The notes below the pieces were generated by a model. It did not search any database, had not been told where the DNA came from, and worked only from the letters and a program-made list of their open reading frames with translations. Below, piece by piece: positions 36,490 through 51,714 of a stretch of DNA of 51,714 bases. The DNA lies in contig JAIBBF010000021.1 of NCBI GenBank assembly GCA_019694795.1, positions 1 to 51,714 of the forward strand. Direction: 5' to 3'. How positions within the stretch are numbered: the first letter of the stretch is position 1; the number at the start of each line of letters is the position of its first letter. The DNA is from Flavobacteriales bacterium (GTDB taxonomy: Bacteria; Bacteroidota; Bacteroidia; Flavobacteriales_D; UBA2798). The position numbers and the translations under genes are program-made.

Positions 36490-36912
36490 TCAATGATTTA
36501 ATATTTCATTTAATTGCATACCTAGCCATTGTGAAGCAACTTCTTCATTTCTGAAAACTTTAGATGGAATGGGTGGTTTAAAAATTTTCAGGTAGAAATT
36601 TGCAGCAATTTGAATGGCGGAATTGTCGACCAATATCGCTTCTGCTACTCTGTGTTCGTTAAGGCGACTACTTTTTGATGCAAATTGACGAGCTTCTTTG
36701 CTGAAGTAAACTCGTTTTCCGCGCAAGTCAACCAGAGATACAACTTTTCTGTCTCCAATCATCGACAGGCAGCCTTCATGTAATTCTTTGTACTCTTCGA
36801 GTGTGACCGGTTTATCTGAATCACGAAAGGTGACAATAAAGACATCTTCCGAAATAAATCGGGCTGAGGCAATTTTGCAATTGAAAATTAATTCCTGCGC
36901 AAAGGGAATCAT
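36490..36912 (-). CDS. STAS-like (DUF7793-type) small cytoplasmic protein
   Basis: A 140-aa soluble protein: DVFIVTFRDSDKPVTLEEYK, KVVSLVDLRGKRVYFSKEAR, AEAILVDNSAIQIAANFYLK and FKPPIPSKVFRNEEVASQWL. This pattern matches a Bacteroidota STAS-like family. Related STAS proteins work in signalling and partner switching; the function here is unknown. Its ATG overlaps the PorP stop as TAATG, so it is translationally coupled to the adhesin–PorP operon. Confidence 0.72.
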   Translation of the reverse strand: MIPFAQELIFNCKIASARFISEDVFIVTFRDSDKPVTLEEYKELHEGCLSMIGDRKVVSLVDLRGKRVYFSKEARQFASKSSRLNEHRVAEAILVDNSAIQIAANFYLKIFKPPIPSKVFRNEEVASQWLGMQLNEILNH

Positions 36913-37949
36913 TACAAGAAACGGCTTGAACGGATTTTAGAACCTGAAGAAGGATATACAAAGCGAAGCGCAATTTCCATTCCGCCTCTTCCAGTACTTG
37001 CCTGTGTTAAATCCGAAACATTAAGATCATAACTGAATCCGACTGCATATCCTCCAAATTGCAATAGGGTGGTTAAAATTACCGCATCTTTATTCCGGTA
37101 AAAACATCCTAATGAAATAGAAGAACCGGTTACAAATCCGGTGAAATGTGCATCCTCCACAAGGCGATACCGGACATTTGTTCCCATTACTAATTCTCTT
37201 GATCCTCCCTGTAAACTATAACTCAATCCCGGAACAATGCTAATGCGTGAATGCGGGATTCCGAACAAAGCATTTCCATATAAAACATATTTACGATACA
37301 AACGTTCTGAACCATCTCCTAAAAATGAATAATCAGGTTTGTGAACGTGGAAAACAGCGAGTCCACCTGTTGCCATAATCTGATTGTTACCGGTCAGATT
37401 TTTTTCGCCTTGTTTATAGGTGTACGCGATTCCTGTTCCTAAATCAAGAAATGATTTGGTGAAATTACCAGATGCAGATTCTCCTGTTGGTAAAAGCGGA
37501 TTATAAGCCGTTCCATCATACTGTGCACCCCATTGCAGATTGGTAGTATTTACGGATCGTTGCGCATAGCCACCCATTACACCCAGACCAAGCGTTTGTC
37601 CGTCTGCAATTTTCAAGTGATAGGCTACATTCAGATTTCCTTGCATCACACCCATTTTTGCATCGCCTGCACGATCTGAATAAAAGAAAATACCTCCGGC
37701 CCAGAATCCGTTTTTATTTTCACCAAAACGCATGTCGTAAGATGCACCGATGGTTTTATAAGGTGAAGCAACGCTTTTCCATTGTTCCTTATAATTTACG
37801 TTAGCACGAATCTCAGATTCATTCCCTGCATTACCGGGATTAAGCTGCATGGGAGCCATGTAGAATTGAGAAAAGTGAATGTCCTGTCCGAATACCACGG
37901 AAGGAATAATGATTGTCAGAATCGCAACTGTTTTTTTCATGATCATCAT
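36912..37949 (-). CDS. PorP/SprF family T9SS outer-membrane protein
   Basis: A 345-aa predicted beta-barrel protein with signal peptide (MKKTVAILTIIIPSVVFGQ) and the family N terminus DIHFSQFYMAPMQLNPGNAG, then NVNYKEQWKSVASPYKTIGA. PorP/SprF proteins help dock T9SS cargo with gliding-type C-terminal domains at the surface. It is coupled to the upstream 1453-aa adhesin by a TAATG overlap. ATG 37949 is chosen by that overlap; 37946 and 37940 are also possible. Confidence 0.9.
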   Translation of the reverse strand: MMIMKKTVAILTIIIPSVVFGQDIHFSQFYMAPMQLNPGNAGNESEIRANVNYKEQWKSVASPYKTIGASYDMRFGENKNGFWAGGIFFYSDRAGDAKMGVMQGNLNVAYHLKIADGQTLGLGVMGGYAQRSVNTTNLQWGAQYDGTAYNPLLPTGESASGNFTKSFLDLGTGIAYTYKQGEKNLTGNNQIMATGGLAVFHVHKPDYSFLGDGSERLYRKYVLYGNALFGIPHSRISIVPGLSYSLQGGSRELVMGTNVRYRLVEDAHFTGFVTGSSISLGCFYRNKDAVILTTLLQFGGYAVGFSYDLNVSDLTQASTGRGGMEIALRFVYPSSGSKIRSSRFL

Positions 37950-40900
37950 TATTTAAAGAGCGTTACATTTCCTTGTTTTTCTATTTTTTCACCATTGGTG
38001 AGTGTAGCAGTGAGGTAGTAAAAGAATACAGCACCGTTCATTGGCTTATCGCGAATGGTTCCATCCCAGGATTCTGCCGGATTGGTGGTTTCAAATACTT
38101 TTTCTCCCCAGCGGTCGAATACAGCGAAGTATAATTCCTGTATACAATTACCATAAACTTTTAACGTATTGTTCGAAGCATCACCATTGGGTGAGAAGGC
38201 TGTTGGAACAAACAATTCGCCGCATGGCATATCTACAATTACTATTACGGTATCACTTCCAAAACATCCATTTGCATCTGTTCCGTTAACGATATAGGTG
38301 GTAGTTGTATTTGGCGAAGCATAAGGATTAGCGCAATTGCTGCAACTTAAACTTGAGGTTGGTGTCCATGTGTAAACAATTCCTCCTGTTGCAGAAAGCT
38401 GCACGCTGTCGCCCTGCAAAATAATTTGATCTGCACCGGCAGAAATATTCGCTGTACCAATGGTAGAAATAGTTCCACTTGCACTTGCCGTACATCCATT
38501 GGCATCTGTTACGGTTACTGTATAATTTCCTGCTGCAAGATTAGTTGCAGTTGTTCCGTTTTGCGATGGAACACTATTCCAGGAATATCCAAAAGGATTT
38601 GTTCCTCCACTCACCGTTGCAGTTGCTGAACCATCATTCGCACCACAGTTGGCACTTGTTGTTGTTACCGTTACTGCAAGTGCAGCAGGTTCAATGATCG
38701 TTACGTTGATGCTGGCGCTACAACCGGATGCATCGGTTACGGTGGCAGTGTAAGTTCCTCCTGCTAATCCACTCGCGGTGTTTCCACTTTGTGCTGGTGT
38801 TGTATTCCATGTAACGGAAGTTGGTGGCGTTCCTCCGCTGGTAGTTACGGTTGCTGTTCCGTCGGCATCACCGTTACAGGTGACATCCGTTTGCGTGCTT
38901 AATGTAATGGTTGGTGCTCCAACGTTACTGATGTTTGCACTGGCAGTTGCAGTACATCCATTCGCATCCGTTGCAGTTACGGTATAAGATCCTGCAGCAA
39001 GTGCTGTGGCAGTGGCTGTATTTTGTGCGGGACTCGTATTCCACGAATACGAAATTGCACCTGTACCTCCAGTTCCATTGGCAGTAGCTGTTCCATCACT
39101 TGCTCCGCAGTTAGCAGGTGTTGTAGTGGTGGTGACACTTACTGCAGTGGCCGGTTGCGTAATAGTGATGGTAGTTGATCCTACACAGTTGTTGTTATCA
39201 GTAACGGTTACCGTATAAGTTCCTGCCGCAAGCGAAGAGAAATTTTGTGATCCTGCTACATTGTTAAATGTGGCAACTGTGTTTCCTCCGAGAGTTAAAA
39301 CATAATCATAAGGCGATGATCCTCCACTAGCTGTTGCTGTAAAACTACCGGTGGACTGACCAAAACATAATACATTCACTTGTGCACTAGTAGTAACGGT
39401 TGGTCCACCCGAAGAGGTAATTGTTGTACTTGCGGTTGCGGTACATCCATTTGCATCGGTTGCTGTAACAATATAATTTCCTGCACCGAGTGATGTTGCT
39501 GTTGCTGTGTTCTGCACCGGTGATGAATTCCATGAATAACCAAATGCACCTGTTCCTCCACTCGCTAATGCAGTTGCAGATCCATTGTTATTTCCGCAGG
39601 TTGCAGGAGTGGTAGAACTCACCGTCACCGAAGGTGCAGAAGCGGGTTGTGTAATGGTTACCGTAGTTGTTCCCGTACAGTTATTGTTATCGGTTACGGT
39701 TACCGTATAAGTTCCGGCTGCCAATGAAGAAAAGGCTTGTGATCCTGCTACATTGTTAAAGGTTGAAATGGTATTTCCACCCAATGTTAAAACATAATCG
39801 TAAGGAGAAGCTCCTCCTGATGAACTGGCAGAAAAACTTCCGGTGGATTGTCCGAAACAATTCACGTTTACTTGCGATGAAGTGCTAATGGTTATTGTTG
39901 GACATGCAGTACATGCCGGAATGGTTGCAAGATTAAAATACGTAATGGTTGTTCCATTGGCGTCCACCACCTGAATACTATCTATACCTGCACCGGGGGT
40001 GACATTGGTTCCGGTGTTAAAATTAATCCAGGTTAAAGCAGGCGGACCAGCAACTTGACCAAAGTTTCCACCGCAAAGTCCTAATCCCGCAACGCAAGTT
40101 GAAACCATTGTTCCATTTTGCCAGGTATAAGGACCTGTTCCTCCCGACACGGTATAACTTCCGTTTGTTTCATGACATAAACTTAATGGTGCGCAAGAGG
40201 AAACAACAATCGATTGTGTTGATGATCCACATGGTAATGTATACGTCACTGTATAAGTACCCGGACTTGCACTTGCCGGAGTAAATACACCAGTACTGGA
40301 ATTAAATGCAACTGTTGCAGGAGATACGCTCCAGGTTCCACCTGCTGTTCCCGGTGTTAAAGTAATAGGTGAATCGGATGTACAAAGATTTCCGGGAGGA
40401 CAAATTGTTGGATCGCAACATGTGGTAGCAATTTGCGCACATGCAGAAGCAGCGAATGATTGAACGGATCCTGTTCTTGAACTGCTTCCTGAATTTCCGG
40501 TAGAACCTGCAGCAATTAAATCGCCGGTGGATGTAATAGCAACATCATATACATTAAATGTAGTAGCGAAGAATTGCAATTGATTTAAATTCTGATCGAA
40601 TTTGTAAACGCCGGTTTTTGATCCTACATAAATATTTCCGCAGTTGTCGATAACAATCCCGCTGTTTTGCGTTTGGTTTTGTCCGAGTGTTGCCGTAAAT
40701 CCTCCTCCGGGAATGGTGGCAGATGCAATGATTGCGGCGGTGTTAAAATCACGTTTATCTAAACGTGTTCCTCTGTTTACAAATACAAAATTATTGTAAT
40801 AGGCAATCGCTTCAATTCCTGTATTATCATATCTCCAGTTTTCACATTTATAGGAGAAATTATATCCGCCGTTTTCAACGTGAAATGGACCGCTTTGTCC

Positions 40901-42310
40901 TGGACAGTTACTTAAATCCTGCGCAACGTATCCGATGGAGTCGTGCGTAAGGAAATAATATTTTTCATTTGTAGTTGCAGTAATGGAACGAACCTCTTGT
41001 GTGTTTGGTGGAATCCCTGCAATGGTGGAACCTGTTACCTGAACACTGGCAGTTACATTTCCGGTATTCATATTGATATCATAGATATAGGGAAGGGGAG
41101 GTAAAACTCCACCTGTTCCGCCAATTACTAATTTGGTTTGATCGCAATTGAATGCAATATTCCAAAATTCGGTACTGGAAAATAATCCACCTGGATTCGG
41201 GTTATTCCACACGACTGTTCCTGATGTATTTACTTTTACAATGGCTGCGCTTGATCCATTAGTTACATATGAATTCCCTGCATCATCCACGGCGAATGTC
41301 CCCAACCATGAAGTCGTATCGTATGGTGTATTATACACCCATTGTTGCACACCGGCTGAATTGTACTTAATTAATTGCAATGGCATTACTCCTCCAATGA
41401 TGTATGCATTTCCTGCAGCATCCGATTCACATTCCCAGATACAATCCCAGTTGGTATTGAAGGCAGGGGATTGAGTCCATGGATCGATTACAATTGTTTT
41501 TGTTGCATCGTAATTTTCGAGTGAAAAGGAAATGGTATTGTTATCGACTTTATAAACCGATTTTATTTTCTGGCTTTCGTTGTTTTGGTAGAAAGTAACC
41601 GGAGCATGGTCGATGATATCTCCGAATGAAGTAGAAGTCCGGATTGTTCCGTCTTCCATTAATTGAATGTTTTTAGAATAATGCAGTTTTACATCTTCAA
41701 CCTTGGCACCCGGGTGAAGAATGACTGAATATTTTACACCGCTTTCAGGGTGAAATTCATACACCACATCAATATTCTTATAGAGATTTTTGTAGGTGAT
41801 TTTTTTATAAGAAGGGATATTGTTTGCGTCCGTCAATTTCCCCTTTGCATCGTAGAAACTATAGGTATGCGTAAAATTATTTTTTTCTGAAGAAACAATT
41901 TCAGCATTTGGATTAGCATTGATCCAGTTACAGTAAACTATCTCGGTATTAAAATCTAAACGGTTTCCTTCTTTTTCAAAAACCTGCCAGTCCTTTAACG
42001 AATTAAATCCTTGTTCTTTTCTGGCATTTCTCGCAGCTTTTTCTTCATCCGATTTTTTTCGTTTGGCTTGCGATTCCAAAACAATGGCCATACCACTGGG
42101 TGTGAAAAAATAATTTTCATAGTGACCATCATGTCCGAATACCACATGATTATTAAATCCATTTTGGGCCGGAAGGATAAACTGACCTTTATTTTCAATA
42201 AATGCTTTCGACTCGAATGGATTATGCTTCCATTTTTCAGATTGTGATTTCGCGAATAGTGGCGCAATCAGAAGAGAAAATACAGAAAACAATTTCAAAG
42301 AGAATTTCAT
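37949..42310 (-). CDS. Giant gliding-type T9SS adhesin with SprB repeats (1453 aa)
   Basis: Signal peptide (1-22). An N-terminal DUF7948-like domain (~36-275: AFIENKGQF, NIDVVYEFHPESGVKYSVIL) comes first. A beta-propeller-like section (~285-620) is followed by an Ig-like/PKD region (~640-800). Six SprB-type repeats in three long-short pairs (~805-1284: NCFGQSTGSF…GTYTVTVTDNNNC and CG..DG.A.A…ATDANGC) follow. An Ig-like domain precedes the gliding-motility C-terminal sorting domain (~1365-1453: FVPTAFSPNGD … FDRWGEKVFE). By family it is exported by T9SS and retained on the surface with PorP. A TTGAGGGG-type promoter lies upstream. Confidence 0.92.
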   Translation of the reverse strand: MKFSLKLFSVFSLLIAPLFAKSQSEKWKHNPFESKAFIENKGQFILPAQNGFNNHVVFGHDGHYENYFFTPSGMAIVLESQAKRKKSDEEKAARNARKEQGFNSLKDWQVFEKEGNRLDFNTEIVYCNWINANPNAEIVSSEKNNFTHTYSFYDAKGKLTDANNIPSYKKITYKNLYKNIDVVYEFHPESGVKYSVILHPGAKVEDVKLHYSKNIQLMEDGTIRTSTSFGDIIDHAPVTFYQNNESQKIKSVYKVDNNTISFSLENYDATKTIVIDPWTQSPAFNTNWDCIWECESDAAGNAYIIGGVMPLQLIKYNSAGVQQWVYNTPYDTTSWLGTFAVDDAGNSYVTNGSSAAIVKVNTSGTVVWNNPNPGGLFSSTEFWNIAFNCDQTKLVIGGTGGVLPPLPYIYDINMNTGNVTASVQVTGSTIAGIPPNTQEVRSITATTNEKYYFLTHDSIGYVAQDLSNCPGQSGPFHVENGGYNFSYKCENWRYDNTGIEAIAYYNNFVFVNRGTRLDKRDFNTAAIIASATIPGGGFTATLGQNQTQNSGIVIDNCGNIYVGSKTGVYKFDQNLNQLQFFATTFNVYDVAITSTGDLIAAGSTGNSGSSSRTGSVQSFAASACAQIATTCCDPTICPPGNLCTSDSPITLTPGTAGGTWSVSPATVAFNSSTGVFTPASASPGTYTVTYTLPCGSSTQSIVVSSCAPLSLCHETNGSYTVSGGTGPYTWQNGTMVSTCVAGLGLCGGNFGQVAGPPALTWINFNTGTNVTPGAGIDSIQVVDANGTTITYFNLATIPACTACPTITISTSSQVNVNCFGQSTGSFSASSSGGASPYDYVLTLGGNTISTFNNVAGSQAFSSLAAGTYTVTVTDNNNCTGTTTVTITQPASAPSVTVSSTTPATCGNNNGSATALASGGTGAFGYSWNSSPVQNTATATSLGAGNYIVTATDANGCTATASTTITSSGGPTVTTSAQVNVLCFGQSTGSFTATASGGSSPYDYVLTLGGNTVATFNNVAGSQNFSSLAAGTYTVTVTDNNNCVGSTTITITQPATAVSVTTTTTPANCGASDGTATANGTGGTGAISYSWNTSPAQNTATATALAAGSYTVTATDANGCTATASANISNVGAPTITLSTQTDVTCNGDADGTATVTTSGGTPPTSVTWNTTPAQSGNTASGLAGGTYTATVTDASGCSASINVTIIEPAALAVTVTTTSANCGANDGSATATVSGGTNPFGYSWNSVPSQNGTTATNLAAGNYTVTVTDANGCTASASGTISTIGTANISAGADQIILQGDSVQLSATGGIVYTWTPTSSLSCSNCANPYASPNTTTTYIVNGTDANGCFGSDTVIVIVDMPCGELFVPTAFSPNGDASNNTLKVYGNCIQELYFAVFDRWGEKVFETTNPAESWDGTIRDKPMNGAVFFYYLTATLTNGEKIEKQGNVTLFK
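38459..39898 (-). repeat. SprB-type tandem repeats in the 1453-aa adhesin
   Basis: Three long-short repeat pairs with a period of about 163 residues (~490 bases). The first two pairs are closely alike also at the DNA level (compare 39158-39368 with 39650-39860). Confidence 0.8.
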
Positions 42311-42337: not shown

Positions 42338-42384
42338 CAAAATTACCCAGCAGGAATTTTCTGTTATGGGGGCTGCCCCCTCAA
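42338..42384 (-). promoter_or_regulatory. Promoter with TTGAGGGGGC motif for the 1453-aa adhesin operon
   Basis: Minus strand: TTGAGGGGGCAGCCCCC at 42384-42368; 39 bases from its start is TAATTTTG (42345-42338), a perfect TAnnTTTG; the ATG is 27 bases beyond. No TTTG -33 element is present; the inverted G/C motif sits just upstream of where it would be, as an activator site would. Confidence 0.7.
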
Positions 42385-42425
42385 AGGCTATTTTGTTTTA
42401 TTCTATACAGAAAATGGTGAGATGG

Positions 42426-42492
42426 AAAAAAAATCCCGTCGATAATGATGAAAACCTACTTGCCAAAATTTTCAGAAAGGAATCGACGGGAT
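42426..42492 (-). terminator. Terminator of the candidate small RNA
   Basis: Perfect 11-base inverted repeat followed on the minus strand by eight T. The 38-base loop is long for a standard terminator but is internally AT-rich. It stands 41 bases before the motif of the adhesin promoter. Confidence 0.6.
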
Positions 42493-42504
42493 CCTGAATT
42501 ATTT

Positions 42505-42543
42505 TCAGGGACGGATGACCGGTTCTATGATGATTCGGATCAT
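42505..42543 (-). CDS. Possible 12-codon leader peptide
   Basis: Reads MIRIIIEPVIRP, ATG at 42543 and TGA at 42507-42505. Its distance from the -7 box (22 bases) equals that of the two adhesin start codons (27 and 19), and its stop codon overlaps the first hairpin arm, as in attenuator leader peptides. It could be chance. Confidence 0.3.
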   Translation of the reverse strand: MIRIIIEPVIRP

Positions 42544-42564
42544 GGTCTTTTTTTGCTTGCTGAA

Positions 42565-42612
42565 CAAATGTAGTAGGTCAACTAAATCGAATTTGGTGGG
42601 CTACCCCCTCAA
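42565..42612 (-). promoter_or_regulatory. Promoter with TTGAGGGGGT motif for the candidate small RNA
   Basis: Minus strand: TTGAGGGGGTAGCCCACC at 42612-42595, and TACATTTG at 42572-42565, 40 bases apart start to start. Same layout as the two adhesin promoters. Confidence 0.65.
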
Positions 42613-42708
42613 TGTTTATCTCGCTGTTTTTCAGAATAAAGTGTATTGGGAAAAGGACTAAACCAATTAGATTTGTTTAAAAAATAACCTGATTTAAATG
42701 TTGAGGTT

Positions 42709-42794
42709 AAAAAAAGAATGCTGCAAGGCGGAAAACTACGTCGGAAAAAAGAACGAAAATGAGGGTGACGTTGTTGGAAAGGTGCCTTGCAGCA
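42709..42794 (-). terminator. Long-loop terminator-like inverted repeat after the OmpA-like gene
   Basis: Perfect 11-base inverted repeat TGCTGCAAGGC / GCCTTGCAGCA with 54 bases between, five bases after the OmpA-like stop. On the minus strand the second arm is followed by TTCTTTTTTT. The long loop is unusual; it may be a terminator with an internal structure or a small inserted element. Confidence 0.5.
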
Positions 42795-42799
42795 AAAAA

Positions 42800-44740
42800 T
42801 TATAGGAATTTAACTTCTACGCGACGATTAATGGCGTGTTGTTCTTCCGGACAATCGTCCTTTTTACGACAATTGTTTAATAGTTTCTTTTCACCATAAC
42901 CAACCGGAACTAATCTGTTCGGAGAAATTCCTTTTGATACCAGGTAGTCGAAACACGATTGCGCTCTTTTTTTGGAAAGCGTAAGGTTATATGCGTCATT
43001 TCCCACTGCGTCGGTATGAGCGCTTAATTCGATACGCGCTTCCGGATTTTCTTGCAGGAATTTTACAATGTTATCGAGAATGGGAAAGGAAGAAGGTTGG
43101 ATACTTGCTTTGTCGAAATCGAAATAGATATTATCAATACGGACCACATTATCTTTTTTAACAATGGGTTTCATGTAAACCGGACTCAATTTCTTTTTTT
43201 CTTCGTTGCGTTGTAGTTCTCCAACCGACTGAATATCGGATACGGTGCGATTCTCCGTTTCATATCCGTCTAGCGTATAACGCACACGGTATTTTTTTTC
43301 AGGATCGATTAAAAATTCCCATTTACCATCTTTACCTGTAATTACGGAATTAACCACCGATTCACTTCCATCTGCTGCTACCAGAAGTAATTCTACTTTT
43401 ACTCCGGTTACAGGTTTATCGGTAATCTTATCCATAACTACACCCCGAAGTGTATCCGGAACAAATCGCTTTTTAAAATAATAAATATGATCGTAGCCGG
43501 TTTCACCATCGCGATTGGAACTGAAATATCCGTCCTTCGCACCGGGGTGAATGGAAAATGCAAAATCATCTTTCGAAGAATTAAATGGTTTACCCATGTT
43601 ATTTGCATTTGAGGGCATACCATTTTTTAATTCTGCTACATATATATCACTTCCTCCAAATCCGGGTAAACCACGGGAGGAGAAATACAATTTTCCATCA
43701 CAAACAATCGGATAAAATTCATCACGATCCGTGTTCACGCTTGTCCCCAGATTTTTGGGTTGCGACCAATTTCCATCATTTGTTTTTGTAGATGAATACA
43801 AATCGAAACCTCCAAATCCTCCGGGCATATCCGATGCAAAATACAAGGTATTTCCATCTGAAGATAAACTGGGGAATGCACATGAATATTCATTCGAATT
43901 CAGCGATAATTCTTTTACATTAACCCAACTACCGTTTACGTTTTCTGCTTCATACATGTGCAACACATTTAATCCGCTGGTACTGATTCCGGATTTCCCT
44001 GCTTTTTTGGTGTTGTATTTTACAGTTTCAGTTGCATTGGAGGTAAAGAATAATTTTTTTCCGTCACTGCTTAAAAATGGAGTCCCTTCATAAAAAGAGC
44101 GATTCGTTTCGCCGGGTAAAACAAGCGGTGCGCCAAAATTGATGGAATCTGCAGCTTGAGCATAGGCTAAATCATAATAGGTAGTCTTTACCTGAAAATC
44201 CTGATTTTGCGGAAGTGCATAAATTAATCCGTTGTTGTAAAGACAATGCCCCATGCTTCGTCCACCCGTTTCAATATTTGTTTTGTAAGTGATGTAATCC
44301 TTTTTTAATGAACTGTTATCTTTTGGCCATTTGCACAGCGCAGCATATTTATTGCTGAGTTCGGGTCGACCCGATTTTTCGCAATAGGCTTTAAATATTT
44401 CTGCAGCTTTATCGTATTGCTCCAGATTCATTAATATTTCCGCATACTCAAACATGTTTTCTGCTGAGTTCTCATTTTTAAACTCCATCAGTTTTCCATA
44501 CCATTCGGCCGCGTTTTTATAGTCGAACAATCGCTTATACGTTTTAGCAATTTGCTGGGTCATGTAAAACTTTTTTACCACCACATTTTCCTGCAGCGCC
44601 ATTTTGTACGATGCAATGGCTTCGAGGTACATTCTGCGCTTATAAAAATCGTCGCCTTCTTCCAGGTGTTTTCGTTGGGCAGAAGCAAAAAGTGTTATGC
44701 TGCTCAAAGCAATGAGCAATACAATCCGAAGTGATTTCAT
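42800..44740 (-). CDS. OmpA-family envelope protein with TPR, propeller and CarboxypepD_reg domains (PorE-like)
   Basis: A 646-aa protein with signal peptide (1-22). TPR-like repeats follow (~23-170: MYLEAIASYKMALQ, AAEWYGKLMEF, YDKAAEIFKAYCEKSG). Next is a PD40/WD-like propeller (~190-425: FTSNATE, LYFASDMPGGFGGFDLYSS, LYFSSRGLPGFGGSDIYVAE). A carboxypeptidase regulatory-like domain (~430-510) precedes the OmpA C-terminal peptidoglycan-binding domain (~540-646: FDFDKASIQP, ELSAHTDAVGN, NRRVEVKFL). This order is that of PorE, the T9SS component linking the machine to peptidoglycan. Third gene of the 1505-aa adhesin operon. Confidence 0.9.
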   Translation of the reverse strand: MKSLRIVLLIALSSITLFASAQRKHLEEGDDFYKRRMYLEAIASYKMALQENVVVKKFYMTQQIAKTYKRLFDYKNAAEWYGKLMEFKNENSAENMFEYAEILMNLEQYDKAAEIFKAYCEKSGRPELSNKYAALCKWPKDNSSLKKDYITYKTNIETGGRSMGHCLYNNGLIYALPQNQDFQVKTTYYDLAYAQAADSINFGAPLVLPGETNRSFYEGTPFLSSDGKKLFFTSNATETVKYNTKKAGKSGISTSGLNVLHMYEAENVNGSWVNVKELSLNSNEYSCAFPSLSSDGNTLYFASDMPGGFGGFDLYSSTKTNDGNWSQPKNLGTSVNTDRDEFYPIVCDGKLYFSSRGLPGFGGSDIYVAELKNGMPSNANNMGKPFNSSKDDFAFSIHPGAKDGYFSSNRDGETGYDHIYYFKKRFVPDTLRGVVMDKITDKPVTGVKVELLLVAADGSESVVNSVITGKDGKWEFLIDPEKKYRVRYTLDGYETENRTVSDIQSVGELQRNEEKKKLSPVYMKPIVKKDNVVRIDNIYFDFDKASIQPSSFPILDNIVKFLQENPEARIELSAHTDAVGNDAYNLTLSKKRAQSCFDYLVSKGISPNRLVPVGYGEKKLLNNCRKKDDCPEEQHAINRRVEVKFL

Positions 44741-44757
44741 AATGTAAATTCTTTCGT

Positions 44758-45699
44758 TTAGAATCGTGGTGATTCTAAAATAGCATGTGATTTTTGTTGA
44801 ATCATGTTAAATACAACCATGATTTCGTGACTTCCATTGGAATAATTTCCAATTTTAGAAAAATTGAAATCGTAGGCATAACCAATTTTCCAGGATGGTG
44901 ATAGCTGGAAATTTAATAATGCAACGGCTTCCTTGCTGGTGCGGTACGATAATCCTACTCCAAATTTTTTATTGAATACAGCTGTGCTGTTAAAATCAAT
45001 TTGTAATGGAGCTCCGGAAATGTTTTTGATCATCGTTGAAAAATTCAGATCAAACGATTGGTTCACTTTCCAGCTATAACCTGCATTGATGTACATATGC
45101 ATGGCATTAAAATTAAATTTCGTTTCACCTTTGTATTCCGATGCGTAAATGATTTTGTTCTGCAAAATATTCGGAATGGAAATTCCCGCGTAAAAATTAC
45201 TGCTGAAATAATAAGCGCCAAACTTAAAATTGGGCATGGCAAACATGGGTGTGTTTGCTGTGAAAATCGGATCGTTAGGTTGGGTGGTTTCTACCTGACT
45301 GAAATCGCTCTGCAATAATGAAAGTGTAGCTGCTGCACCTAAAGATAAATATTGGTTACGCGAAACTTTCATGCGATAAGCGTAGGTTCCCGTAATTTCA
45401 ATATCGCGGTTCACACCAATCTGATCATGTAAAATGGTAATTCCCGCAGCGTTGTTTCCATCACCAAAAGGTGTGTTGAAATTGAGACCTTGTAATACCG
45501 GTGCTCCTGAAAATCCGGTCCACTGCGTGCGGTAAAACGCCGCTCCACTCATACGATTGGTATTGGCAATAGCAGCAGGATTTACAAATCCGTGGTGTAA
45601 CATATACTGACTCACCAAATACTGATTTTGAGCACTGGCATTGGTTTGTATTCCTAAAATAAGGACAACAACAGCAATTGTATATTTAAAAGTTTTCAT
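44758..45699 (-). CDS. PorP/SprF family T9SS outer-membrane protein
   Basis: A 313-aa predicted beta-barrel protein with signal peptide ending NASAQ and the family opening QYLVSQYMLHHGFVNPAAIA, then MSGAAFYRTQWTGFSGAPVL. It is the second gene of the operon adhesin–PorP–PorE-like, 24 bases after the adhesin and 17 before the OmpA gene. By family it likely anchors the neighbouring adhesin at the outer membrane. Confidence 0.9.
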   Translation of the reverse strand: MKTFKYTIAVVVLILGIQTNASAQNQYLVSQYMLHHGFVNPAAIANTNRMSGAAFYRTQWTGFSGAPVLQGLNFNTPFGDGNNAAGITILHDQIGVNRDIEITGTYAYRMKVSRNQYLSLGAAATLSLLQSDFSQVETTQPNDPIFTANTPMFAMPNFKFGAYYFSSNFYAGISIPNILQNKIIYASEYKGETKFNFNAMHMYINAGYSWKVNQSFDLNFSTMIKNISGAPLQIDFNSTAVFNKKFGVGLSYRTSKEAVALLNFQLSPSWKIGYAYDFNFSKIGNYSNGSHEIMVVFNMIQQKSHAILESPRF

Positions 45700-45723
45700 A
45701 TGCTTCAGATAAAAATTCTACAA

Positions 45724-48700
45724 TTATTTTCTTCTTAATTCCAATGATCCGCGTAATGGTTCCAACGTGTCGTTTAATTTCAACACATAGAAATAGGTTC
45801 CATCCACTACGTCTTCACCAAATAAAATGCGATTGGTATTGGATTGTCCGTTCCAGTTATTGGTATATGGCTTCGCCTGAAATACCAACTCTCCCCAGCG
45901 GTTGTAGATGTATAATTCGTTCTCCGGATATTTTTCCAATCCTGTAATCACAAAGTTGTCATTGATGCCATCACCATTTGGTGAGAATCCTCCGGGTACA
46001 TTGATTATTATTTCTTCAGTTACGCGGAATACAACGATTGCTGTATCGCAGAAATCGGAACAGAATGCATCACAAATCACATAGGTGATGGTATCATAAC
46101 CAATGAAATTATCATTCGGATCGTAGGTGATGGTGGTCCCATTTACGGTGTAGGTTCCGTTGGATGAATTATTAATAATTCCAATAGTTCCGGGATTACC
46201 TATATCATTCAATGAAGTATTGATGCTTACGCTGGATGTGTTCTCTACATAAGTAGAATCGTTATTGGCATCTATACTTCCTGCATTGTAAATAGAAACC
46301 AAAACACTGTCGCTTGCGCTACATCCTTGTGCGTTGGTAACGGTAACGGAATAATACGTGTTACTTGTAGGATTTACACTAATACTTGCAGTTGTTTCCC
46401 CGGTTTCCCAATTATAGGTTCCGCCTCCGCTTGCTGTAAGTATAGTAGAGGTATTCGGACAAATTTGTACGTCGTTACCAGCACTTGCATTTGGATTTGC
46501 ATTTACGGTAATGGAAATTTGTTCTTGTCCACCAAGATTCGTACAACCATTTTGATTAACAGCTTCCACAAAATAATTTGTTGTTCCAACAGTTGGTGTA
46601 ACCGTTAATGGAGATGTTCCCAATAAATTTCCGGAAGCATCATAAATGTTGTACGTAATATTTGCACCGGATCCACTTGCGGTAATAGTGCTTGTTTCTC
46701 CGTTACAAATTGTGCTGCTGCTTGCGTTTACGGTAGGATCTAAAGGTGATGCATTTACTAAAATGGAATTGGTAACAGCATCCTGACAAGGCGCTACTCC
46801 TACAGTATAGGTGATGTTCACCGTACCTGATAATCCTGTTGGATCGAATGTATTTCCACTCACACCAGTTCCACTCCATGTTCCACCAGCAGTTCCGGTA
46901 ATAAGCGGATTAAGATTTAACACACCATCCGATTCACACATGGTGCCTGGACTATTCCATGTTGCAGTAATAGTTGCCTGCACGCTGATGCTTTGTGTCA
47001 AAGTTTGTACGCAAGGTGAGGTTCCAACCGTATAGGTTATGTTAATGATTTGTCCTGCTAAACCGGTTGGATCAAAAATATTTCCGCTAACGCCAGTACC
47101 ACTCCATGTTCCTCCGCTTGTTCCGGTAATAAGTGTGTTTAAATTAATCGGACCTGCTTGTATACATGTTGCGCCGGGACTCGTCCAGGATGGATCTGCA
47201 ACCGGAATTACAGTAACAGTGATAGATTGTCGTCCTGCTAAATCTCCGCAACCATTGCTGTTTGCCGCTTCGATATAATAGGTGGTGGTTGCACCGGGTG
47301 ATACATTCAATGGTGTTGCGCCTAACAATGTGCCACCGGTTGGAGCATCATATACATCGAACGAAGTTGCGCCGGTACCACTTGCATTTAGCGTTGTGGA
47401 TTGTCCCGCACAAATAGTTGTATTACTTGCTGAAACTCCTGTTAGATCTGGTGTAACATTAACGGTAATTGTAACAGTAATTGGACTTCCATTACATGAA
47501 TTTGCAGTTGGTGTTACTGTATAAGTTGCAGTGCCTGGATTTGTTCCGCTTGTACTTAATGTTTGCGCAATGGATGATCCTGAATTAGTGGTTCCACCTG
47601 TTACACCACTTTGTGATACGGTCCAGTTAAATGCTGTTCCTCCAACATTCGATCCCAATGCAATGGATGTTGCATTTCCTGAACAAATGGTTTGTGTGGA
47701 TGGTGTTGCAGTTGCAACCGGTGTTGGATTTACAGTTACGGTAGCAGTGATGGGTGAACCATTACAACCATTAGCAGTTGGTGTAACTGTATAAGTTGCA
47801 GTTCCTGATGTTGTTCCCGAATTGCTGATGGTTTGTGCAATACTGCTTCCACTACCATTGGAGGCACCGCTTATTCCTGCAGTTTGAGAAACGGTCCATG
47901 CGTAAGTGGTATTTGCCGTGTTCGAACTTAATGCAATTGAACTTGCATTGCCGGAACAAATAGTTTGTGTGGATGGTGTAGCTGTTGCAACTGGTGCAGG
48001 ATTTACGGTGATGGTTGCAGTAATTGCAGTTCCGCTGCAACCATTTGCAGTTGGTGTAACTGTATAGGTTGCTGTTCCTGCTGTTGTACCGGAATTGGAT
48101 AAGGTTTGCGAAATACTCGAACCACTACTGTTGCTTCCTCCACTTATTCCCGCTGTTTGAGAAACGGTCCAGGCAAATGTTGTTCCGCTTACATTCGAAG
48201 TTAATGCAATTGATGGTGCATTTCCTGAGCAAACAGATGTTGATGATGGAGTAGCTGTTGCTGTAGGAATTGGATTTACAGTTACGGTAACGGTTGCTGT
48301 ACTTCCTGTACAACCATTCGAAGTGGGCGTAACGGTATACGTCACCGTTCCCGGTGTAACACCGCTTGCAGTTAATGTTTGATTGATGGTTGATCCGGAT
48401 CCATTACTTGCTCCTGTTGCACCCGATTGAGTAACGGTCCATGCAAATGTGGTGCTTGATGTTGTACCCGGCACTGTAGATGAAAGCGAAATATTCGGTC
48501 CATTACCGGAGCAGACGCTGGTTGGGGATGGACTCGCAACTACATTGGGTAATGGATTTACGGTAACGGTAACCGAAGTTCGCGACGAAACACATCCCGG
48601 ATTGGTATTGTCTTCCGCTTCTACATAATAGGTAGTGGTAGTGGTTGGACTAACAACGGTAGATGCTGAATTTGAAAATGCAGTTCCTCCCGACGATACA

Positions 48701-50241
48701 GTGTACCAGTGATAGGTCACATTCGTTCCGCCACTTGCGGTTAAAGTTACAGATGCTCCCTGACAGATGGTAGCTGGACTAGGATTAGTTGAAACGGTAG
48801 GAGCTACCGGTGGGGTACAAATTACATTTAAGCAATGTGAATTTACGGTTGGCGTTAAATTGTTAACCACCGGCGTGAAAGTTCCTTCGGATGCTAGGTT
48901 GAAATTCGAACTGGTTGGAGTAGAAAATGACATCGTGTAATTTCCTAGTGAAGGAGTTCGGGTGGTAGGTGGACAACCTGCATCAGGATCGTTCATGTTT
49001 CCGGATGCATCGGTTCGAATGAGATTATAATTAAATCCGGTAATTTGCTGATCCGTCATTACCATATAATAACCCTGGTCACTACATAATCCACCTTCCG
49101 GTAATATGGAAGAAAGTCCGATTGGTGAATATCCTCTTCCGAAAATCAATGCTCCGGTTGAACTGTTCAATTTAAAAATGGTCGAATAAAAAGTGGGAAA
49201 CAAACCGGAAATTTCTGTTCCGATTACGGAATAGTTTCCATCGGAATTTTCCATCAGATCCTGTACAATAAATGTTGCAGGCGGAAATGCTGATCCATTG
49301 ATTTTGCGAGAAAAACTTCCAACGGTTGGTGTAGATCCTGTTCCTTGTAGTTTTACAATGATAGCATCGAGGTTATCATAACCTCCAACTAAAATATCGC
49401 CGGTAGATAGTCGTAATGCGGCATTTAATCCCTGGCTGTTTCCACTACCTCCAAACCTTCTTATATAAGTGAGGTTTCCGCTTAAATCGGTTTTAATGAT
49501 TAATCCATTGCGTGGGTAGTCACCATCTGAATCTAATGTTCCTGTTCCTTCAGATGATTCACCAACAAAGAAATATCCGTCGGCCGATTCTGCAACATCG
49601 TTGATGTAATGTTCATCCGGATTAGCAGTGGAGATGGTCCACACTCTGCTCCATTGTAAAACACCTGCCGAATTCACTTTAAATCCGAATGCAGAAGTAG
49701 TATCAACTGTATTGGCACTTACTCCGTCCCAGAAATAATCCACACTTCCTCCCACAAGAAATCCGCCGTCGGAAGTTTCTATAATAGAGTTCGCTGTTTC
49801 TACGGAGGCGTCATCGGAGGGACGATTAGGTAATGAATAGCGTTTGGCCCAAATCAGATTTCCGTTATCGTCGATACGCACAAGTACTGCACCATTACTA
49901 TCCGAACCACCTGCTGCGATGTACCCTCCGGTGCTTACTTTTTTGAGATCGTTAAACTGTGTTGCAATTCCCCCAACAAATGCCTTACTCCAAATTACGT
50001 TACCTGTACTGCTCACCTTGGTGATGTTACCATAAAGTGGCAAGAACGATGTATTGGTTCCGGCAAAAACAAAATCGCCCGTTGGTGTTTCCACCATTCC
50101 ACCTGCAATATCTAATGCCGCAATATCGTAGCTGGTACGAAAGGTGGTTTGAGCTTTGTTTACTAAAGTGCTGGTAAGAAGTCCTAAAAGAACGATAGTC
50201 CTTCTCCCGAAAATTTTCATTTTCTGAATGTTGATTTTCAT
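45724..50241 (-). CDS. Giant gliding-type T9SS adhesin with PKD/Ig-like repeats (1505 aa)
   Basis: Signal peptide (1-31, ending VNKAQ). A propeller-like section (~35-470: repeats of GGFLVGGS / TGDILVGG) is followed by an Ig-like domain at ~475-560. Four ~91-residue PKD/Ig-like repeats (~566-928: PSTQTICSGN…AWTVSQ…GTATYTVTPTANGC…TVTVNP) come next, then further Ig-like modules including two TWSGTGVSGN repeats (~1015-1160) and one more at ~1250-1320. The gliding-type C-terminal sorting domain closes it (~1412-1505: VPGGFSPNGDGINDNF, YIYNRWGELVFQ). First gene of its operon. ATG 50220 is an alternative start. Confidence 0.92.
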   Translation of the reverse strand: MKINIQKMKIFGRRTIVLLGLLTSTLVNKAQTTFRTSYDIAALDIAGGMVETPTGDFVFAGTNTSFLPLYGNITKVSSTGNVIWSKAFVGGIATQFNDLKKVSTGGYIAAGGSDSNGAVLVRIDDNGNLIWAKRYSLPNRPSDDASVETANSIIETSDGGFLVGGSVDYFWDGVSANTVDTTSAFGFKVNSAGVLQWSRVWTISTANPDEHYINDVAESADGYFFVGESSEGTGTLDSDGDYPRNGLIIKTDLSGNLTYIRRFGGSGNSQGLNAALRLSTGDILVGGYDNLDAIIVKLQGTGSTPTVGSFSRKINGSAFPPATFIVQDLMENSDGNYSVIGTEISGLFPTFYSTIFKLNSSTGALIFGRGYSPIGLSSILPEGGLCSDQGYYMVMTDQQITGFNYNLIRTDASGNMNDPDAGCPPTTRTPSLGNYTMSFSTPTSSNFNLASEGTFTPVVNNLTPTVNSHCLNVICTPPVAPTVSTNPSPATICQGASVTLTASGGTNVTYHWYTVSSGGTAFSNSASTVVSPTTTTTYYVEAEDNTNPGCVSSRTSVTVTVNPLPNVVASPSPTSVCSGNGPNISLSSTVPGTTSSTTFAWTVTQSGATGASNGSGSTINQTLTASGVTPGTVTYTVTPTSNGCTGSTATVTVTVNPIPTATATPSSTSVCSGNAPSIALTSNVSGTTFAWTVSQTAGISGGSNSSGSSISQTLSNSGTTAGTATYTVTPTANGCSGTAITATITVNPAPVATATPSTQTICSGNASSIALSSNTANTTYAWTVSQTAGISGASNGSGSSIAQTISNSGTTSGTATYTVTPTANGCNGSPITATVTVNPTPVATATPSTQTICSGNATSIALGSNVGGTAFNWTVSQSGVTGGTTNSGSSIAQTLSTSGTNPGTATYTVTPTANSCNGSPITVTITVNVTPDLTGVSASNTTICAGQSTTLNASGTGATSFDVYDAPTGGTLLGATPLNVSPGATTTYYIEAANSNGCGDLAGRQSITVTVIPVADPSWTSPGATCIQAGPINLNTLITGTSGGTWSGTGVSGNIFDPTGLAGQIINITYTVGTSPCVQTLTQSISVQATITATWNSPGTMCESDGVLNLNPLITGTAGGTWSGTGVSGNTFDPTGLSGTVNITYTVGVAPCQDAVTNSILVNASPLDPTVNASSSTICNGETSTITASGSGANITYNIYDASGNLLGTSPLTVTPTVGTTNYFVEAVNQNGCTNLGGQEQISITVNANPNASAGNDVQICPNTSTILTASGGGTYNWETGETTASISVNPTSNTYYSVTVTNAQGCSASDSVLVSIYNAGSIDANNDSTYVENTSSVSINTSLNDIGNPGTIGIINNSSNGTYTVNGTTITYDPNDNFIGYDTITYVICDAFCSDFCDTAIVVFRVTEEIIINVPGGFSPNGDGINDNFVITGLEKYPENELYIYNRWGELVFQAKPYTNNWNGQSNTNRILFGEDVVDGTYFYVLKLNDTLEPLRGSLELRRK
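47458..48546 (-). repeat. Four PKD/Ig-like tandem repeats in the 1505-aa adhesin
   Basis: Period about 91 residues (~272 bases) at residues ~566, 656, 747 and 838; the later repeats share near-identical stretches such as ATATPSTQTICSGNA. Confidence 0.8.
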
Positions 50242-50260
50242 GATTCGTAGTTTTCCGCTG

Positions 50261-50309
50261 CAAATGTATCGTAGCCGAATCCCCGGAAAGAAGAGGGGTG
50301 GCCCCTCAA
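50261..50309 (-). promoter_or_regulatory. Promoter with TTGAGGGG motif for the 1505-aa adhesin operon
   Basis: Minus strand: TTGAGGGGCCACCCCTC at 50309-50293 (palindromic GAGGGG-N3-CCCCTC), and TACATTTG at 50268-50261, 41 bases start to start; ATG 50241 is 19 bases beyond. No -33 TTTG. It lies in the 124-base gap after the response regulator gene. Confidence 0.7.
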
Positions 50310-50365: not shown

Positions 50366-51028
50366 TTAAAATTCACGGATGGTCGACAAAAGCTCTCTGT
50401 TTTCGCTTACCCACAGCAATAAGCTATTGTTCCGGGCATCGAGTTCGAGCTTTTTACAAATTCGCGAACGGTAATTTTCTACGGTTTTAACCGAAACAAA
50501 AAGCAATTCAGAAATTTCTTTACTGGAGCGGTTTTGACTAACCAGCTTGAGGGTTTTTAATTCAGCCTGTGTTAGCGTTGAAAGAAGATCCTGGATTTTT
50601 TCTTTTTTCTTATCCGCCTCGCGATATTTATTAAAAGCAGATTGGAGGGATTGGCCGATAAATTTTTTACCCAGCATCACTTCCTTAATGCAATCTACAA
50701 TTTCGATTACTGAATTATCCTTTACAACATAACCGGAAGCTCCGGTGAGGAATGCTTTGTTAAACATTTCTTCCTCTTTGTACATGGTGAGGATAATTAC
50801 TTTAGTCGGAATGTTTTCTGAATAAATTTTCTGGCAGATTTCCAGTCCGTTCATTTCCGGCATATCAATATCCAGAATGGCAACATCGGGTTGAATGCTT
50901 CGGATTGATTCCAAGGTAATATTGCCCGAATCACACTCAGTAATTTCGGCATTCGGAAATGAATTAAGGACAATATCCTTTAATCCTTTTCTGAAAATCG
51001 GGTGATCATCGGCAATGAGTAGCTTCAT
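50366..51028 (-). CDS. NarL/FixJ-type response regulator
   Basis: A 220-aa protein: receiver domain with phosphorylation site ILDIDMPEMNG (Asp53), acidic pair (ADDHP), conserved Thr (ILTMYKEEE) and Lys (GYVVKDNS); C-terminal LuxR-type helix-turn-helix (~150-212: LTQAELKTLKLVSQNRSSKE, ISELLFVSVKTVENYRSRIC). ATGA overlap with the upstream kinase. It is immediately upstream of the adhesin operon, so it is the best local candidate to act at the TTGAGGGG motif; this is inference. Confidence 0.93.
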   Translation of the reverse strand: MKLLIADDHPIFRKGLKDIVLNSFPNAEITECDSGNITLESIRSIQPDVAILDIDMPEMNGLEICQKIYSENIPTKVIILTMYKEEEMFNKAFLTGASGYVVKDNSVIEIVDCIKEVMLGKKFIGQSLQSAFNKYREADKKKEKIQDLLSTLTQAELKTLKLVSQNRSSKEISELLFVSVKTVENYRSRICKKLELDARNNSLLLWVSENRELLSTIREF

Positions 51029-51714
51029 GAATTAGAAATCCTTTCCAGGTTAAATTTAATAATTAATCGGAAACCCTTGCCTTGATTATCGCTCAACTGC
51101 AATTCTCCTTTTAACATTTTAACCCTTTCGCGGATACTTAAGAACCCAATCCCCCGAATCTCCTCTTGATTTCCAATACCTTTTCCATTGTCTCTATAAG
51201 TAAATAAACAATGTTCTCCACTCTTCTCAATGGAAATTTTTAATGCACTTGCACCGGAGTGACGCGTGGTATTGGTTACACATTCCTGAATAATACGATA
51301 CAAATGCGTTTTATTTTCGGGAGATATTTCTTCTATTTCATTGCACACATCAAAACTGCATTCTATTCCGGTTCCGGATTGCGTCATTTCCATTAAGCGG
51401 GCAATACTTCGTATTAATCCGATTTTTTCTAAATAGGAGGGATATAAGTTCCGTGAAATTTCGCGGGTTTGCTCAATTACTTTTCCAACTTCTTCTTCGA
51501 GCGATTGCAAATTTTCTTCCCCATTTCTTCCTAAAATATTTAAGCGCGATTTTACGGCAGAGAGACTTTGTCCGATATCATCATGCAAATCGCGGGCAAT
51601 GCGACTCCTTTCCTTTTCGAGGTTGGCAATTAATTGCTGACTAAAACGCTCTTGTTCCTTGCGGATGTTCCGCTGATTACGGATGTAGAAAACAATAAAC
51701 AACAAAATTAATAT
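51025..51714 (-). CDS. NarX-type sensor histidine kinase, 5' truncated
   Basis: The frame is open to the window edge; the TTG at 51705 is not the true start. Visible: end of a transmembrane helix, coiled linker, HisKA_3 dimerisation box with the phospho-acceptor His (RIARDLHDDIGQSLSAVKSR), N box (IIQECVTNTTRHSGA) and G boxes (YRDNGKGIG, GIGFLSIRERVKMLKG, NQGKGFRLII). It should phosphorylate the following response regulator. The sensor part lies outside the window. Confidence 0.9.
   Translation of the reverse strand: MLILLFIVFYIRNQRNIRKEQERFSQQLIANLEKERSRIARDLHDDIGQSLSAVKSRLNILGRNGEENLQSLEEEVGKVIEQTREISRNLYPSYLEKIGLIRSIARLMEMTQSGTGIECSFDVCNEIEEISPENKTHLYRIIQECVTNTTRHSGASALKISIEKSGEHCLFTYRDNGKGIGNQEEIRGIGFLSIRERVKMLKGELQLSDNQGKGFRLIIKFNLERISNS

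Follow-up and report, generated by a model that had tools for sequence, protein, structure and literature searches.

A conserved inverted repeat upstream of adhesin promoters as the probable operator of an adjacent NarL-type response regulator in Flavobacteriales

Two-component systems of the NarL type are numerous in Bacteroidota, and their target sites are mostly unknown. Within the NarL family, the NreC and ComA boxes are inverted repeats of the GGG-N4-CCC type with a four-base centre, and the partner kinases carry a HisKA_3 domain. PorX, another two-component regulator, lacks a GerE domain. Type IX secretion in Bacteroidota is under two-component control by PorX-PorY-SigP (PMC4800418, PMC8265659), and the remFG-sprCDBF promoters of Flavobacterium psychrophilum depend on sigma-54 and a TAnnTTGY motif (PMC9723704). 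The solved structure nearest by sequence to the regulator described here (3c3w, E 2e-32) is that of DevR/DosR, a NarL-family protein of Mycobacterium tuberculosis whose palindrome has outer TTSGGG and the consensus TTSGGGACTWWAGTCCCSAA (PMC2275270). GacA, also a NarL-family regulator, turns on small RNAs in the GacA-RsmY/Z regulons.

The locus analysed here resembles the DevR/DosR system in having a palindromic site and a putative compact regulon, but differs from it in operator core, spacing, phylum, promoter type and target genes; the DosR core GGGACT-N2-AGTCCC is not matched by the operator consensus found here, TTGAGGGG-N4-CCC. With the NreC and ComA boxes it shares the GGG-N4-CCC type and the HisKA_3 kinases, whereas half-sites and targets differ, and we treat this likeness as a lead. 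As with PorX-PorY-SigP, a two-component system is associated with type IX-related genes in Bacteroidota; that pathway, however, acts on genes of the secretion machine through an ECF sigma factor, whereas here the regulator is NarL-type, the targets are secreted cargo and the promoters have a standard -7 box. Both the GerE domain of the regulator and the sigma-A type of the box place the system outside the PorXY-SigP pathway. The remFG-sprCDBF case is similar in that transcription is regulated for an operon encoding an SprB adhesin together with SprF, although the operator described here is not involved in it. Small RNAs would belong to the regulon as they do to that of GacA, but operator, targets and RNA sequences differ, and we found no evidence of a CsrA-like partner here. 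As a protein, the regulator is a standard member of the NarL family, and the GGG-N-CCC type of its putative operator is known in that family while the operator sequence is its own. A search of open-access papers returned no earlier report linking these adhesins to the operator or to the regulator, and the system is apparently a conserved regulon of a known kind that had not been described before.

The window, that is, the whole analysed stretch of 51,714 nucleotides (contig JAIBBF010000021.1), contains an adhesin island with the following features, in which the operators are those proposed below.
36490..36912, minus strand: DUF7793 (SpoIIAA-like) protein, last gene of operon 2
36912..37949, minus strand: PorP/SprF-like protein, operon 2
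37949..42310, minus strand: adhesin 2, 1453 aa (DUF7948, SprB repeats, CHU_C), gene 1 of operon 2
42338..42345, minus strand: -7 box for adhesin operon 2 (TAATTTTG; operator A starts 39 nt upstream)
42365..42384, minus strand: operator A, TTGAGGGGGCAGCCCCCATA, before adhesin operon 2, aligned with the sister species
42424..42560, minus strand: predicted short RNA of ~135 nt, with a terminator hairpin at ~42433-42492 and a T run at its end
42505..42543, minus strand: possible 12-codon frame MIRIIIEPVIRP within the short RNA (MKRIIIDPVILP in the sister species)
42565..42572, minus strand: -7 box for the short RNA (TACATTTG; operator B starts 40 nt upstream)
42593..42612, minus strand: operator B, TTGAGGGGGTAGCCCACCAA, before the short RNA, kept in the sister species
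42800..44740, minus strand: OmpA/PD40 outer-membrane protein, last gene of operon 1
44758..45699, minus strand: PorP/SprF-like protein, operon 1
45724..50241, minus strand: adhesin 1, 1505 aa (Ig_7, PKD_5, CHU_C), gene 1 of operon 1
50261..50268, minus strand: -7 box for adhesin operon 1 (TACATTTG; operator C starts 41 nt upstream)
50290..50309, minus strand: operator C, TTGAGGGGCCACCCCTCTTC, in the stretch that separates adhesin operon 1 from the response-regulator gene, kept in the sister species
50366..51028, minus strand: NarL/FixJ-type response regulator (Response_reg and GerE, Pfam domains), the putative activator
51025..51714, minus strand: histidine kinase (HisKA_3 and HATPase_c), gene cut by the contig end

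The response regulator consists of a receiver (Response_reg, E 3e-24) and a C-terminal GerE helix-turn-helix (E 3e-10). The kinase gene adjoins the regulator gene and overlaps its start, as expected of a HisKA_3 partner, and its full-length copy in the sister species encodes 670 aa with N-terminal TPR repeats. A PorP/SprF-like gene lies behind each adhesin gene in the window, and a terminator-like inverted repeat (~42709-42797) follows the OmpA/PD40 gene.

An earlier sequence-only reading had described three minus-strand pairs of an inverted G/C motif and a perfect TAnnTTTG box, and we recovered each of them exactly: TTGAGGGGGCAGCCCCC (42384-42368) with TAATTTTG (42345-42338), TTGAGGGGGTAGCCCACC (42612-42595) with TACATTTG (42572-42565), and TTGAGGGGCCACCCCTC (50309-50293) with TACATTTG (50268-50261), at distances of 39, 40 and 41 nt. 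The inverted repeat itself stood, whereas the centre of one to three bases did not: compared with related sites, the symmetry is 8-4-8, TTGAGGGG-N4-CCCCTCAA, with a centre of four bases. The pattern GAGGGG-N2-7-CCC gave seven overlapping matches in the window, all of them at the three operators (expected 0.75), and the arrangement of motif plus box occurred three times in the window and not at all in 300 Markov shuffles.

TAnnTTTG is the -7 box of Bacteroidota sigma-A and is present at the window promoters, but the accompanying TTTG -33 element is not found at any of the three; as the sequence-only reading had noted, neither TTTG nor TTG stands at the -33 place. A Flavobacterium transcriptome places the sigma-A box at -12 to -5 (PMC9723704), so that the operator would lie at about -52 to -33 with its centre near -42.5; operator A, reckoned from its own box, falls at about -51 to -32. 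The right half-site thus covers about -40 to -33 and overlaps the sigma contact region. A centre near -41.5, a fixed spacing and an overlap with the sigma contact, the marks of class II activation, are all found here when transcript starts are reckoned from the position of the box. TTG occurred at -33 in 2 of 36 operator promoters compared with 19 of 67 other boxes (p 0.009), and TTTG in 1 of 36; since the operator itself fixes the bases at -33, this scarcity is weak evidence of activation. Because the operator lies over the -33 place and TTG is rare there, we read the regulator as an activator whose own contact stands in for the one at -33.

Our main reading, to which we give a probability of roughly 0.85, is that the adjacent NarL-type regulator uses the inverted repeat as its operator and turns on a conserved surface-adhesin regulon by class II activation. 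A phosphorylated dimer would bind TTGAGGGG-N4-CCCC(T/C)C with its centre some 42 bp before the transcription start, covering the position of a -33 element that the housekeeping sigma factor would otherwise contact. It would thereby hold RNA polymerase on a promoter with only a good -7 box, turning on the two adhesin-PorP operons of the island and the short RNA, and probably a third adhesin operon elsewhere. Binding, its dependence on phosphorylation, the direction of the effect and the transcript starts are points that we infer from the DNA. The system supplies an operator, its promoter position, a regulator with marked DNA-contact residues and the targets, which would be giant type IX-secreted adhesins with PorP/SprF partners together with a small RNA. 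By means of the operator site the regulon can be read from sequence alone, and both decisions on an adhesive surface and the action of an activator on the unusual -7/-33 promoters of the phylum become directly testable.

We examined the distribution of the arrangement across the order. The pattern TTGAGGGGN1-5CCCN14-28TAnnTTTG was present in 25 of 299 order genomes, compared with three for the backwards pattern. The taxa bearing it were the window's own genus and genera of Crocinitomicaceae, including Fluviicola and Brumimicrobium. The consensus of the non-redundant sites collected was TTGAGGGG-(G/C)(T/C)A(G/C)-CCC(C/T)(C/T)(T/C), and the distance from repeat to box was exactly 40 nt in 30 of the 35 order-wide matches; the variation of 39 to 41 nt within the window counts against the main reading. 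The near-constancy across the order bears on the foremost alternative, in which the regulator represses from the same operator by blocking RNA polymerase at the -33 region until it is released. The overlap of the right half-site with the sigma contact region would suit a repressor, but a spacing that hardly varies across genera is what activators need and repressors do not, and the near-universal lack of a -33 element leaves little promoter to repress; we consider repression unlikely.

The link between site and regulator was assessed from both sides. Regulator homologues at E<=1e-50 were present in 33 of the 299 order genomes. The spacing was near 40 in 23 of the 25 motif genomes, and all 23 encode the regulator (Fisher p ~ 2e-24, an upper limit of strength, as with all our co-occurrence p-values, because the genomes share ancestry); the other two have odd spacings and no regulator match at that threshold. 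Sites with at most two mismatches occurred in 30 of 33 regulator-positive genomes compared with 8 of 33 regulator-negative ones, and the exact site was absent from those 33 regulator-negative genomes. An independent search seeded with the regulator protein alone yielded 80 loci, in which sites were found at 22 of 40 regulator loci with at least 47% identity, compared with 1 of 40 below it and none for the reversed control. The remaining 18 of the 40 closer loci had no site at that strictness, several of them carrying variant sites. In several genera the operator often lies within 1.5 kb of the regulator gene. The suggestion that the adjacent response regulator is the activator is thus supported by its co-occurrence with the operator across the order and by their adjacency in other genera.

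The recognition helix gave a further correlate: ENYRSR or ENYRSK defines the site-bearing clade of regulators, and distant relatives with ENHR-N mostly lack this operator. In a clade at 58-60% identity, a variant, AAGGGGG-N-CCCCCTT, precedes the kinase gene in L137 and L143 and an adhesin in L138. Different palindromes, ATGAGGG-N4-CCCCTAT or ATAGGGG-N4-CCCTCAT, were seen near the ENHR-N relatives L173 and L185, which suggests that the operator changed along with the recognition helix. These associations also bear on a second and still less probable alternative, namely that the repeat is recognised by another DNA-binding protein co-inherited with the regulator, or by an alternative sigma factor. 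The regulator has been identified through association only, which leaves room for such a protein, but a perfect palindrome points to a regulator acting as a dimer, the regulator gene is often no more than 1.5 kb from the site, and the presence of the site tracks the helix residues of that regulator; an alternative sigma factor is opposed by the -7 box, which is the standard sigma-A box.

Intergenic palindromes of the variant type (AAGGGGG-N-CCCCCTT or similar) in L136, L138 and L143 have box-like sequences on both sides, one of them facing the kinase gene, and may possibly each serve as a single operator for two divergent promoters. A looser pattern in relatives, GGGGN1-6CCC plus box, gave mostly chance matches, the control being similar, and was set aside.

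We compared the island with that of the sister species (G001), which has the same gene order and a DNA identity of ~68% across the island. The operators are kept at all three orthologous promoters inside otherwise much diverged intergenic DNA. When the three intergenic regions were aligned, conservation against the diverged background was seen in the repeat, in the RNA-promoter box and in stretches of the leader and of the RNA; the adhesin 2 box of the sister species is TATTTTTA, with one mismatch to the consensus. That both adhesin operons and the short RNA belong to one regulon, as first proposed from the window, agrees with the conservation of the arrangement at every one of the three promoters.

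Genome-wide statements rest on pattern searches of the assembly (3,449,023 bases in 124 contigs). Exact TTGAGGGGN4CCC occurs at only four sites in this 3.45-Mb genome, three of which are the window operators, and all four precede adhesin operons or the RNA, so the motif does not occur just as often outside promoter regions. Sites with one mismatch were no commoner than the reversed control (13 vs 20), and GGGGN1-6CCCN16-30TAnnTTTG matched the three window sites plus one that apparently lacks the full inverted repeat. The fourth exact site (G000:C36:4967; L230:4967) is intergenic, 94 bp upstream of a gene for a secreted-looking protein of 146 residues, which is followed by one whose product, 2190 residues long, carries 12 SprB repeats and CHU_C. 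The sister species likewise has exactly four exact sites, three in the island and one (G001:C76:13624; L229:4120-4139) in the intergenic region orthologous to that of the fourth site; in each species the gene for the 146-residue protein is followed by one for a CUB-containing protein, which in the window species is the 2190-residue SprB/CHU_C adhesin. The distance from the fourth site to the start codon is 94 bp in the window species and 233 bp in the sister, so the promoter distance is not conserved. No good box lies 40 nt from the fourth operator in either species; 58 nt downstream of it the window species has a weak box, TATTTTTC, which would put the centre at about -60.5. This site is probably a further target and would mark a third adhesin operon of the regulon.

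It is very improbable that the repeats act in RNA, as terminator or attenuator hairpins, rather than as DNA sites, since, although GC-rich inverted repeats look terminator-like and other matches to the pattern are terminators (L001; a T run also follows L011), the window sites have no T run and lie upstream of a box at a fixed spacing in many genera, and the true terminators of the upstream genes are located elsewhere; a terminator was accordingly rejected for the window sites, while it explains L001 and could explain L011. The sequence-only reading had preferred a DNA site on the ground that the centre was too small for an RNA loop; with a centre of four nucleotides that reasoning is weak, and the DNA site is still favoured by its position upstream of the inferred transcription start.

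Among the candidate targets of the activator, the readable first downstream genes mostly encode large secreted proteins with a CHU_C-like sorting domain at the end, and start codons mostly lie 20-30 nt past the box, as expected of a real promoter. Pfam searches of the downstream genes from L132, L145 and L152 found CHU_C in all three. The first downstream genes tested were CHU_C adhesins or histidine kinases, and short RNAs also lie behind some operators.

The short RNA of the window has a hairpin loop, GGCAAGTAGGTTTTCA, that is the same in the sister species, and the fold z-scores are -4.3 (window) and -3.3 (sister). It gave no Rfam match at the gathering score. Its possible 12-codon frame is conserved in the two species (42505-42543 of the window; L070; L131:18506-18544), and changes in the frame favour third positions (7/11 vs 2/22, p 0.002, from one two-species comparison). 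In other genera, too, RNAs lacking long frames lie behind operators, both near the regulator and away from it (L047, L050, two in L051, L072, L073, L113, L155 and L160). In Crocinitomicaceae, most of the operator-driven RNAs end with a terminator hairpin, and most such RNAs have in common a block TTTAACTTA(C/G)TACTA before the terminator.

Two antisense readings of these RNAs were rejected. The loop sequence GUAGGUUUUC looked complementary to a conserved leader sequence, GGAAAACUAC, but by duplex energy adhesin 1 came only 11th, and adhesin 2 only 15th, among 30 gene starts. Against the regulator's own start the short RNA ranked 2nd of 30 in the window species and 4th of 12 in the sister, which is not convincing. 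The reverse complement of the Crocinitomicaceae block, with at most one mismatch, occurred at about the control frequency and mainly in the RNAs themselves. In the same orientation, the block scored barely differently against adhesin leaders (means of 9.0 vs 8.5), although ACTAC was enriched in these leaders (5/26 vs 10/384) and a few of them match the block well (L061, L054). Leader mimicry by the block may be regarded as a lead. It is conceivable, though we think it improbable, that the regulator-driven short RNAs belong to the normal working of the adhesin switch, acting as leader mimics or, in this genus, through a conserved 12-residue peptide; if so, surface adhesins would be under two-level control.

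In the Fluviicola loci L053, L056, L057 and L058, the operator stands before frame-broken remnants of a secreted protein (MTRNNLLLLFF...), a relative of which has an open frame of 1098 residues in L052 and L161. The remnants appear to be a decaying target whose promoter is intact. L161 (CP034120.1) is titled Glaciecola amylolytica THG-3.7, and its regulator, operator and target are near-identical to those of Fluviicola, so that the title looks wrong.
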